A stretch of DNA of 46,463 nucleotides from Nitrospiraceae bacterium (GTDB lineage Bacteria > Nitrospirota > Thermodesulfovibrionia > UBA6902): contig QZIL01000094.1 of NCBI GenBank assembly GCA_003599025.1, positions 1 to 46,463 on the forward strand, in the 5' to 3' direction. Position numbers and translations under genes: made by a program. The notes below the pieces were generated by a model, which was given only the letters and a program-made list of their open reading frames with translations, was not told where the DNA came from and did no database searches. This document shows, piece by piece, positions 1,310 to 14,104 of this stretch; the first letter of the stretch is position 1; the number at the start of each line of letters is the position of its first letter.

Positions 1310-4000
1310 CTATTTCTCTATCTTCACCGCACAGAACTTGTACTCCGGTGTGCCGGTGATAGGGTCACGGTGTTCTGATGTAAGGATGTTTGTAAGGGCC
1401 TTGTCATAATGAAAAGTCAGAAAGACAATTCCCTTCTGCGACCGTTCGGTCACCTTGGCCCTTACCTTGATCTTGCCTCTTCTGGAAGATACCTTTACCC
1501 AGTCTCCGCTATCAATACCAAGTCTATTGGCGTCTTCAGGACTGATTTCAATCAGCTCCTCATTGATGAGTTCCATGATTCCGGGCGACCTTCTTGACTG
1601 GGAGCCGTTGTTGTAATGCTCCCTTATCCTTCCCGTAGTCAGGGCAAAAGGGTACTTTTCGTCAGTCTTTTCAGCAGGCCCGGTATGATCCAGGGCCATG
1701 AACTTTGCAAGCCCTCCCGGTCTTGCAAACAGGTCTGTATAAAGCGTTGTTGTCCCGGGATGGTCTTTTGTGGGACAAGGCCACTGGATCCCCTGCTTTT
1801 CGATACGTTCATAACTTATACCGCCGTAGTTCGGTACAAGGCTTGCGATCTCATCCATTATCTCTGAAGGGTGGTTGTAATTCATCGGGTACCCCATCAG
1901 TGTCGACATTTTACATATGACCTGCCATTCAGCCATGCCGGCAAGGGGGTCTATGGCCTTTCTTATTCTCTGCACCCTGCGCTCTCCATTTGTAAAGGTG
2001 CCGTCTTTTTCAGCAAAGCTTGCGCCCGGTAATATTACATCCGCAAAACGGGTGGTCTCTGTATGAAAGATGTCCAGGGCAACGAGGAATTCCACGTTCT
2101 CAAGAGCGCTGTGCACATGGTTAAGGTCAGGGTCTGTCTGGGCAGTGTCCTGCCCCATTATGAACAGGCCTTTGAACTTTTTGTCTTTGCACCTGTCAAG
2201 CATTTCGAGCGATTTATAACCGACTTTGGGAGACAATGAAACACCCCATGACTTTTCAAATTTTTCACGCAGCTCAGGATTGGTGATTGACTGATATCCG
2301 GGCAGGACATGCGGCATCGGCCCGAGGTCGGAAGCGCCCTGGACATTGTTCTGCCCCCTAAGCGCCATTATCCCTGTTGAAGGCCTTCCTATATGGCCGC
2401 ATACAAGCGCAAGGTTGGCAACAGCCATGGCGTTTTCTGTGCCTGTGCTGTGCTCCACAACTCCGAGGCCGTATACGATCATCGCCTTTTCTGCATGTGA
2501 ATATAACCGGGCAGCTTCCACGATCTTTTCCTTTGAGACGCCGGTGATCTTTTCAACCCTGTCGAGGTCATATTCAGCGACCTTTTCCCTGACCTCTTCT
2601 ATGCCCTCGGTCCTGCTGGCGATAAATTCTTTATTCTCCCAGCCATTCTGGAGAATGACATTAACGATACCGTTAAGGAGTGCTATGTTCGTGCCGGGCT
2701 GGAGGTTGAGCCACACATCTGCGCGTTTTGCCATCCATATTTTTCTCGGGTCCCCGACTATGAGTTTTGCCCCGTTTCTCAGTGCCTTCTTGAGGTAAAG
2801 TGATACTATGGGATGGGCCTCGGTCGGGTTCGATCCAAACAGAAACAGCGTGTCGATGTCCGGCATCTGCGCCAGTGAATTGGTTGCAGCGCCTGCCCCT
2901 AAGCTGGTGGCCAGACCGGCCACAGTAGGAGCGTGTCAGACACGTGCGCAGTTGTCGACGTTGTTGCTGCCGATTGCGCACCTCACCCATTTCTGAAGTA
3001 GATAGTTTTCTTCATTGCTGCAGCGGGCGGATGAAAATGCCCCCACAGATTCTGCTCCATGATCAGCGATAAGCTGTTTGAATTTATTTGCAACGAGATT
3101 AAGCGCTTCGTCCCAGGTGGCTTCATGAAATTTACCGTCCTTCTTTATCAAAGGTGTTTTGATCCTGTCCTGGCTGTGGATAAAGTCATATCCGTACCTG
3201 CCCTTAATGCAGAGGTTGCCCTTGTTAACAATGGCATCATAATCAGATGTGACTTTGACAACCTTCTCGTCCCTTACATTCAGATATAGATTGCATCCGG
3301 TACCGCAATAGGCGCATGTTGTCTTCACCTTTTTCATTTCATAGCAGCGGCCTTTGCCCCTGCCCTTCCTGTCAGTTAGTGCGCCTGTAGGACAGGTGGA
3401 GACACACTGGCCGCAAAATTCACAGTTGTCGAGCGTGCGCGGCCTGCCGAATGCAGTGTCCGGCACTGAGTTGAATCCCCTGCCCGTGATATCGATTGTG
3501 CCTGCCATCACGACTTCATTACATATCCTTACGCACCTTCCGCAAAGAATACACTTGTTCGGCTCAAAGGTAATGAAAGGGTTGTCCTCACGTATTGGAA
3601 GGTCCCACTTCTCTCCGGCAAACCTCGTCCCGTCGACTTCATATTTGTATGCAAGGTCCTGGAGTGTGCATTCTCCGGTCTTTTCACACCTCATGCAGTC
3701 ATTCGGATGGTTGGAAAGCAGAAGGGATATCATGTTTTTTCTTATGCGGTGAATGGCCTCGTTTTCAGTTATAACGATCATATTATTCGCAACAGGTGTT
3801 GTGCATGCTGTAAGCGGCCTGTTTACACCTTTGACCTGCACTACGCAAAGACGGCAACCGCCGTAAGGCTCAAGGCGGTCATCGTGACACAGTGTCGGGA
3901 TTTTCACACCGACCTGTTTTGCAGCATCGAGGATAGTCTGTCCTGCACTGCAGTGAGTTACCAGACCGTTTATGGTTATTCTTATCTTCTTATCTGACAA
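1310..4000 (-). CDS. fdhA: Formate dehydrogenase catalytic subunit, selenocysteine-containing (UGA at 2936-2938)
   Basis: Mo/W-bisMGD formate dehydrogenase large subunit, about 896 residues, interconverting formate and CO2. The frame is interrupted by one TGA at codon 355, in the context CARV-U-HAPTVAGL, which matches the Sec site of E. coli FdhF (ARV-U-HGPSVAGL). I therefore read it as one selenoprotein gene. Domains in order: NuoG-like [2Fe-2S] (Cys38, 49, 52, 66); His98/Cys102/105/111 [4Fe-4S]; two ferredoxin clusters (Cys150/153/156/160 and Cys193/196/199/203); the catalytic-domain [4Fe-4S] (Cys229/232/236/264); then the molybdopterin domains. The start is TTG, supported by AGGAGG five bases upstream. 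It is the last gene of an operon with NuoE- and NuoF-like subunits, implying NAD (possibly also ferredoxin) as electron partner. The family is certain; physiological direction is not known. Confidence 0.95.
2896..2938 (-). promoter_or_regulatory. Bacterial SECIS element in fdhA
   Basis: Immediately 3' of the UGA the mRNA can fold into a hairpin: lower stem CUCCUA/UAGGGG, upper stem GUGGCC/GGCCAC, apical loop GGUCU. The loop starts 18 nt after the UGA, the same loop sequence and the same distance as in E. coli fdhF, where SelB binds GGUCU. This supports UGA decoding as selenocysteine and argues against a nonsense mutation. Confidence 0.9.
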
Positions 4001-4036
4001 ATCGTCCTCCTGGTAATGATGGGAAACCGTCCATAA

Positions 4037-4498
4037 TCATTCCCAAATATAATTGGCAAGGTTCATAAACTTGTGGTTCATGTCCCTCAGGATCTCACAG
4101 ATAACTATGGTCATCTCACGGACTATCTTATATGCTGTGCGGGGGCTTTCCTGAAGGAGCCTTTCCATGTCCGCCCTCTTGAGAATAAGCACTTTGGTGT
4201 CCTGCAGTGCCTCAACAGAGGCTGAATGAGAACGCCCGTCCAGAAGAGAAAGTTCTCCGTAAAAATTGTTCTCCTTCAGCACGGCGAACGTCTGCTTGGC
4301 CCCTTCCTTGGTCCTCTTAATGACCCTGACCTTACCGTAATCGATAATATGCATTCCCTGTTCCGGACTGCCCTCTTCCCAGATTATAGTGTCTTTTTTA
4401 TAAAACTCTTCTGAAAGAACAGAAGCTATAGTAGTCAGTTCCTCTTCTGAAAGGTCCTTAAACAGTGTTATTTCTTTAAGTCTCTGTCTGCTTACCAT
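4037..4498 (-). CDS. Cyclic-nucleotide-binding-domain protein without DNA-binding domain
   Basis: A 153-residue protein made almost entirely of one Crp/Fnr-type cNMP-binding beta-roll with its C-terminal helix. There is no helix-turn-helix, so it is not a Crp-type DNA-binding regulator. The phosphate-binding cassette reads YGELSLLDGRSHSASVEA. The Arg that contacts the cyclic phosphate in CRP-type cassettes (as in GELALLDG-x-P-R-S-A) is replaced by His here, so cAMP binding is doubtful. The start has a strong AAGGGGGG ribosome-binding site. It sits inside the formate dehydrogenase operon between the NuoF-like gene and fdhA, which suggests a role in sensing for, or interacting with, that enzyme (inference only). 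Confidence 0.85.
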   Translation of the reverse strand: MVSRQRLKEITLFKDLSEEELTTIASVLSEEFYKKDTIIWEEGSPEQGMHIIDYGKVRVIKRTKEGAKQTFAVLKENNFYGELSLLDGRSHSASVEALQDTKVLILKRADMERLLQESPRTAYKIVREMTIVICEILRDMNHKFMNLANYIWE

Positions 4499-13330: not shown

Positions 13331-14086
13331 TTACTGAACCGTCACCTTCACCTTGTCCACACCCGTATTTCCTGTCTGGGGGTCATATGCATAGATTATA
13401 ATTTCGTAACGTCCTTTTTTCTTCACTAGAGCCTCTGCCTGAAATGCGCTTGGCCCAGTATAATTCATTGCAATAGTATCTATAATCTTGCCTTCGTGTT
13501 TTACAAGTGCCTTGATTTCATACTTGTCTGCGTCCCATAACCCGCCCGGGGTCAATGGGCAGCCTCATATCATTACTATCTGGGCGGATACTGGAATTAC
13601 GGCCCTGCCGTCACTTAATTTAACTGTCTCAAGAGACTTTGCATCAACAGAGAAACCAGGCACTTCTATAATGACACCTTCACCGACAATGTCCCTGCCG
13701 GGAATGAGCCACATCTGGGTCGAACTCATTATCATGTTTGTTTTATCGCTGTATGGCGCTGAGACATCTATGGTGATTAACCTGGGTTCACTGATGTCCA
13801 GAGATGTTTCGAATTTGGCAGCATCAGCACTGATCTCTCCAAACCTGGTCTTCGGCTGGTTCATTATAATCTCAGTGTCACCCGTGCCTCCGGCTGTCAG
13901 ACCTTCAGCAAGCACCTTGCCGGTCTCGCTGTCTTTGATAATTACGAGGGCACCGCCCATTTTCGATCCTACAAACTTCGCGTCCTTGGACTTGGCCCTG
14001 ATAACGAGCTTCGTCTGTACTGCTTCGGAAATACCAAAAGACAGGACGCCTGCCAGAAGCATTCCGAAAAAGATTAATCTTCTCAT
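13331..14086 (-). CDS. Putative exported selenoprotein with Sec-Gly-Cys-Pro motif (UGA at 13565-13567)
   Basis: I read one gene of 251 residues with an in-frame TGA at codon 174 (context VSAQIVMI-U-GCPLTPGGLWDA). The same frame continues for 77 codons to a TAA without a shift, and both halves look like one beta-rich protein. The N-terminus (MRRLIFFGMLLAGVLSFG) is a signal peptide, so the protein is exported. Residues about 25-165 are beta-rich, Ig-like in pattern; the part after Sec (DADKYEIKALVKHEGK onward) looks like a further Ig-like domain. The ATG at 14084-14086 has AAGGAGGAG just upstream. A SECIS-like hairpin follows the UGA. The U-G-C-P motif suggests a redox or metal-binding site (inference). 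I know no named family. The alternative is a broken gene with a nonsense mutation. Confidence 0.75.
13528..13567 (-). promoter_or_regulatory. SECIS-like hairpin after the UGA of the exported protein
   Basis: Starting two bases after the UGA the mRNA folds as CUG/CAG, then CCCAU/AUGGG, a bulged U on the 5' arm, then GACCC/GGGUU, with apical loop CGGGC 16 nt after the UGA. A bulged U on the 5' arm and G in the first two loop positions are features of bacterial SECIS elements. The loop differs from the GGUCU of fdhA, so SelB recognition needs to be shown. Confidence 0.65.
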
Positions 14087-14104
14087 CTTCTCCTCCTTAT
14101 AATT

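Follow-up and report, generated by a model that had tools for sequence, protein, structure and literature searches.

The locus and its in-frame TGA

On the minus strand of the window, i.e. the whole 46,463-nucleotide stretch of DNA analysed here, a frame of 251 codons runs from an ATG at 14086-14084 to a TAA that ends at 13331. The frame is open apart from a single TGA at codon 174, which is directly followed by GGC TGC CCA (Gly-Cys-Pro), such that reading the TGA as selenocysteine (Sec) yields a Sec-Gly-Cys-Pro sequence. Based on this arrangement the initial annotation had proposed an exported selenoprotein of an unrecognised family, preceded by a strong ribosome-binding site and accompanied in the window by a second gene of this type, fdhA. 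The elements that it had described in the DNA were all recovered. The features of the window are:

13331..14086, minus strand: selenoprotein gene of 251 codons plus TAA with Sec at codon 174, supported by full-length homologues
13334..13666, minus strand: C-terminal Ig-like beta-sandwich domain (residues 141-251) predicted by AlphaFold2, bearing the Sec-Gly-Cys loop
13530..13563, minus strand: SECIS-type hairpin directly after the TGA, from folding, the bSECIS constraints and synonymous constraint
13559..13567, minus strand: Sec-Gly-Cys motif (residues 174-176), both thiol positions of which are kept or lost jointly
13565..13567, minus strand: in-frame TGA (codon 174) read as selenocysteine, from a column with TGA in Sec-type and TGT or TGC in Cys-type homologues
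14021..14086, minus strand: signal-peptide-like N-terminus (residues 1-22), MRRLIFFGMLLAGVLSFGISEA, from the sequence and the hydrophobic N-terminus of relatives
14092..14098, minus strand: ribosome-binding site AAGGAGG, from the sequence
1310 to ~4000-4498 (start codon not fixed), minus strand: fdhA, the second selenoprotein gene, from its TGA, domains and hairpin

The signal-peptide-like N-terminus contains no lipobox Cys, and the window protein is therefore probably a soluble periplasmic protein. Pro177, which follows the Sec-Gly-Cys motif, is variable among Sec forms, and the C-terminus (...VDKVKVTVQ) is devoid of Cys.

For fdhA the earlier assignment as a UGA-Sec gene was confirmed. Its product is of the formate dehydrogenase type with NuoG-like N-terminal Fe-S domains, and the TGA at 2938-2936 lies within molybdopterin oxidoreductase domains in the context ...ARVUHAPTVAGL. 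The hairpin of this gene has the loop GGUCU and passes our scripted bSECIS test (see below). A gene for a cyclic-nucleotide-binding regulator directly upstream of fdhA terminates with a TGA in the fdhA frame.

Decoding of UGA as Sec requires a dedicated machinery, for which the initial annotation had suggested a search of the genome. All four genes, selA, selB, selC (tRNA-Sec) and selD, were found in the source genome. The genes selA and selB lie side by side, and the tRNA-Sec gene is located 121 bases beyond selB. At this locus (L002, G000:C24:6028-8101) selC thus follows selB at a distance of about 120 bases without overlap, in contrast to some Nitrospirae in which selB and selC reportedly overlap. 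The selD gene (L036, G000:C17) itself contains a TGA early in its frame. Behind this TGA lies an inverted repeat rich in GC, GGUCC-GGC-GGACC; by eye the top of this hairpin carries a similar GG, and it did not pass the bSECIS scan.

Homologues and the residue at the TGA column

A scan in which each species was represented by one genome provided 12 relatives with 45-81% identity, nearly all of them full-length, such that homologues spanning both halves of the frame do exist. Nine of them contain one in-frame TGA at a common column (8 labelled as Nitrospirota-type, 1 as Deferribacteres), while the relatives from Fulvivirga and two Microbulbifer have TGT or TGC at this position. Surveys of the relatives, the phylum and the class together provided 20 TGA copies from 18 Nitrospirota genomes, each with exactly one stop. 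In addition to these, five genomes from the window's class were found to carry Cys copies. Relatives were furthermore present on six sphingomonad plasmids, of which the four different ones that we aligned are Cys forms. Two further copies, which belong to other families of the phylum, carry the sequences MCGC and MCDC. In every copy that retains the motif the residue at the column is either Sec (TGA) or Cys, with 14 Cys sequences in total. The TGA is thus reproduced in other genomes and paired with Cys in homologues, as expected for a selenoprotein. Viral and phage collections contained no relatives. Two genomes, G014 (L007/L011) and G029 (L010/L012), each carry two TGA copies on separate contigs, which may be paralogues or the result of mixed bins.

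On a tree calculated with the motif residue masked, at least three changes between Sec and Cys are needed. Since the resolution of its deep branches is poor and several of them are long, we make no claim about the direction of these changes. For the three closest pairs dN/dS was about 0.11-0.18 on both sides of the TGA. Purifying selection is therefore equal before and after the codon, in agreement with the coding character initially described as alike on both sides.

Among the 18 TGA-bearing genomes, 17 contain at least one of selA, a full-length selB and a tRNA-Sec above the gathering score. The exception is G006 (91% complete), in which none of these three was found, and several other TGA-bearing genomes each miss one marker. 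These gaps probably reflect draft incompleteness. With regard to homologues without TGA, selA was missing from the Fulvivirga genome, from both Microbulbifer genomes and from the two Nitrospira-family genomes tested, and the Fulvivirga and Microbulbifer genomes contained no selB above cut-off.

The hairpin downstream of the TGA and the decoding of the codon

Bacterial Sec insertion depends on a hairpin in the mRNA next to the UGA, which according to the published bSECIS constraints has a loop of 3-9 nt with a G within its first two positions, an upper stem of 4-16 bp, a spacing of 16-37 nt and a minimum free energy (MFE) of at most -7.5 kcal/mol (PMC13188914). We implemented these constraints in a script of our own. 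A hairpin with a bulged U and a G in its apical loop had been proposed for the window gene, with 13528-13567 as the region to be tested. It is present: pairing starts at 13563, one base past the TGA, a bulged U is located near 13554 and the apical loop is the 5-nt sequence CGGGC at 13548-13544. Its bSECIS parameters (loop CGGGC, spacing 16, 10 bp, -12.7 kcal/mol) fall within the published ranges. For a 42-base stretch at the TGA we obtained an MFE of -16.8 kcal/mol. This energy is ordinary (z = -1.45), since 16 of 200 shuffled sequences folded equally well. No SECIS match was obtained from Rfam, neither for the window nor for the hairpin.

The hairpin folds in 19/19 Sec sequences examined. The scripted test was passed by 15 of 19 Sec copies, compared to 29 of 657 TGAs sampled from the window and 2 of 12 Cys forms. 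Within the 13 codons after the TGA the synonymous codon identity among 17 non-redundant Sec-type sequences was 0.70 versus 0.40 elsewhere, an excess that was matched in none of 100,000 permutations. In Cys-type sequences the corresponding excess was not significant (0.41 versus 0.34, p 0.20). The Sec-type codons for T-P-G-G-L are nearly frozen (ACC in 16/16, CCG in 17/17, GGG in 16/17 and TTA in 15/16 sequences), and the frozen stretch coincides with the hairpin. The hairpin is thus conserved in Sec forms beyond chance. Support for the stem from covariation counting was weak, due to the stem being nearly invariant. The FdhA and SelD genes of the source genome, which encode enzymes unrelated to the window protein, share with it the UGA followed by a hairpin with an apical GG 16-18 nt after the codon. 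One Cys form (L060, G364) has retained most of the SECIS sequence after its TGT codon, AACCCCGGGCGGGAUAUGG, which suggests a relic of a Sec ancestor and hence a recent change from Sec to Cys.

Under the standard code the TGA splits the frame. It could be a genuine stop or reflect an error in sequencing, and the gene would then be decayed or encode just a short protein. This is very improbable given that the same TGA, and no other stop, is common to 18 separately assembled genomes, that selection downstream of it is equal to that upstream, that relatives without TGA have Cys at the position and that synonymous codons are frozen behind it. A pseudogene or sequencing error is ruled out by the conservation of both the TGA and the downstream frame. 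The open frame as such would also agree with TGA being read as another amino acid, by a changed code or by ordinary read-through. We consider this extremely improbable: relatives have Cys rather than Trp, Gly or any other residue at the column, the full Sec machinery is present, TGA stands at the Sec sites of fdhA and selD, and a TGA terminates the gene just upstream of fdhA. A change of the genetic code was rejected on these grounds, i.e. the Cys in relatives, the Sec machinery and the use of TGA as a terminator. From the comparison of sequences, recoding of UGA-174 to selenocysteine is the reading to which we assign a probability of roughly 97%. The proposal of an exported selenoprotein is thus supported by the TGA column, the Cys homologues, the machinery and the conserved hairpin.

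Fold, Sec-Gly-Cys pair and gene neighbourhood

The window protein matched no Pfam family above cut-off. In NCBIfam release 20 it had no match at E ≤ 10, with scattered weak hits only for members of the family, and PDB sequence searches with two profiles returned nothing. AlphaFold2 predicted a mostly beta structure with two domains (pLDDT 86.7 for the full model), and domain 2 modelled alone reached a pLDDT of 96.2 and a pTM of 0.87. Foldseek searches with domain 2 returned only generic Ig-like domains with TM values of about 0.5-0.65, including CARDB, SoxYZ and CrdA, and the two-domain model provided only Ig-like matches of low TM, e.g. RbmA and macroglobulins. From these models we infer that the mature protein would consist of two Ig-like beta-sandwich domains. 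The best matches of domain 2, to the CARDB domain of PF1109 and other Ig-like domains, had a TM of about 0.53 and 10-18% identity, such that the fold alone is common to them. Besides the Sec-Gly-Cys pair the best-conserved stretches are RAKSKDAKFxG in domain 1 as well as PGGLWD and TGNTG in domain 2.

We compared the family with known selenoproteins. In the table of 119 selenoprotein families of a 2026 review, from which the window family is absent, UGC motifs occur only in the DUF1573 and TlpA types (PMC13188914). These types (DUF1573, PF07610; PMC13188914, Table 1) resemble the window family in the Sec-Gly-Cys spacing, the bacterial origin and the prediction by Sec/Cys pairing. They differ from it in sequence family and predicted fold: among 34 members of the window family we found no match to PF07610 at E ≤ 0.1 and no match to thioredoxin-fold Pfam models, and an Ig-like sandwich is predicted instead. 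A prior description in Nitrospirota was not found in the open-access literature. The family thus appears new relative to the checked lists and model libraries, with candidates from a deep-learning scan that the review mentions without listing (PMC13188914) lying outside this comparison. While the mechanism is that of an ordinary bacterial selenoprotein, the family and its fold appear to be new among selenoproteins. The family adds a selenoprotein without thioredoxin-like fold and points to periplasmic use of selenocysteine in Nitrospirota. This conserved protein of uncultured Nitrospirota has been missing from annotations because gene callers split the gene at the TGA.

The strongest evidence on the pair comes from its joint inheritance. 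Both thiol or selenol positions occur together in the 19 Sec and 14 Cys sequences that reach the motif, and both are missing in 16/16 loci read from the Nitrospira family (f29), where the sequence is L-S-G-[S/T/A/N]. Due to this complete co-retention and co-loss residues 174 and 176 probably act as a unit. The pattern would fit a selenenylsulfide/disulfide or a metal site with two ligands, and fits a carrier with one thiol less well. We consider the Sec assignment combined with a paired Sec/Cys chemistry to be very likely. The thiol-less homologues (L044-L057, L084, L085) are themselves conserved in the sampled genomes, with the pair replaced by Ser-Gly-Ser/Thr/Ala/Asn.

Gene neighbourhoods provide hints on function. 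Within the window's own group the gene is solitary and divergent from an adjoining nucleoside transporter gene, and neighbours vary between lineages, such that any functional reading has to draw on distant Cys forms. On three sphingomonad plasmid islands, which are close relatives and not independent observations, a gene for a BigR-like ArsR protein is followed by one for a Tll0287-like protein and by the family gene. Genes for an SQR-III-like flavoprotein, a rhodanese, an RND exporter, TlpA and cytochrome bd lie nearby, together with peroxiredoxin and TrxC on two of the three islands. In Sphingomonas LK11 the family gene is preceded by a DsbB-like gene, the end of which lies 2 bp away. The names DsbB, BigR and SQR-III refer to scores under the curated cut-offs (for DsbB just below that of Pfam). 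A gene for an ExtKL-like multihaem cytochrome lies directly upstream in G363 and G364, abutting or overlapping the start, and a sulfate permease gene takes this place in G265. Overall the neighbours suggest periplasmic selenol/thiol redox chemistry, perhaps involving reactive sulfur.

The sequence evidence shows UGA-174 to be recoded to Sec, for which the genome encodes the standard SelA, SelB, tRNA-Sec and SelD and the SECIS hairpin lies directly downstream. Our preferred mechanism would build on this as follows. Domain 2 would display the Sec-Gly-Cys pair on the conserved loop UGC-x-[LIT]-x-P-G-G-[LIM]-W-D, and the pair would cycle between selenol/thiol and selenenylsulfide, thereby donating or accepting periplasmic electrons. 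It might act as a selenol-disulfide oxidoreductase or reduce per-/polysulfides or peroxide, with a DsbB/DsbD-like, a TlpA-like protein or a cytochrome as candidate partner for recharging. Regarding the redox motif suggested initially, the U-G-C arrangement thus held, while its redox function is putative: we favour a redox role of the family somewhat, and regard a link to reactive sulfur as tentative and less likely than not. For the more encompassing picture the odds are about even. It would comprise a novel class of selenol redox (or reactive-sulfur) proteins of the periplasm that use an Ig-like beta-sandwich in place of the thioredoxin fold. In this class Sec-Gly-Cys and Cys-Gly-Cys would have been interchanged several times, and the centre would have been lost completely in the Nitrospira group, with the scaffold taking on another role there.

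Rather than shuttling electrons, the Sec-Gly-Cys of such a selenoprotein could carry sulfur as persulfide or selenosulfide in the manner of the swinging arm of SoxY. The SQR-III-like flavoprotein, rhodanese and BigR-like regulator near the plasmid Cys forms, the TauE-type exporter genes in LK11, the sulfate permease upstream in G265 and the SoxYZ chains among the Foldseek matches of domain 2 would agree with this. SoxY and SoxZ of thiosulfate oxidation share with the window protein the periplasmic Ig-like fold, the weak similarity of domain 2 and possibly the sulfur context. However, there is no sequence match to them, and the TM of about 0.5 was obtained amid many unrelated Ig-like domains. 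The Cys of SoxY sits in a C-terminal GGCGG arm, whereas the motif of the family is internal and no such arm exists. Moreover, a carrier would need just one thiol, while here both positions are kept or lost jointly. Overall, we consider a sulfur carrier unlikely.

Pairs of the C-x-C type are common metal ligands, and Sec and Cys of such a selenoprotein could coordinate a soft metal, e.g. copper or mercury. Genes near the plasmid forms include those for an RND exporter and a heavy-metal ATPase, and among the weak fold matches is CrdA, a copper protein. However, except for Met172 no conserved His or Met cluster lies beside the pair, the RND pump scored 254 versus 701 bits, far under the CusA/CzcA cut-off, and no copper genes adjoin the chromosomal copies read. 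This makes a metal site quite unlikely. The Sec, Cys and thiol-less homologues provide a clean set for asking what selenium contributes, and since named strains of Microbulbifer, Fulvivirga and sphingomonads that carry Cys forms have been deposited, the function is testable in them.
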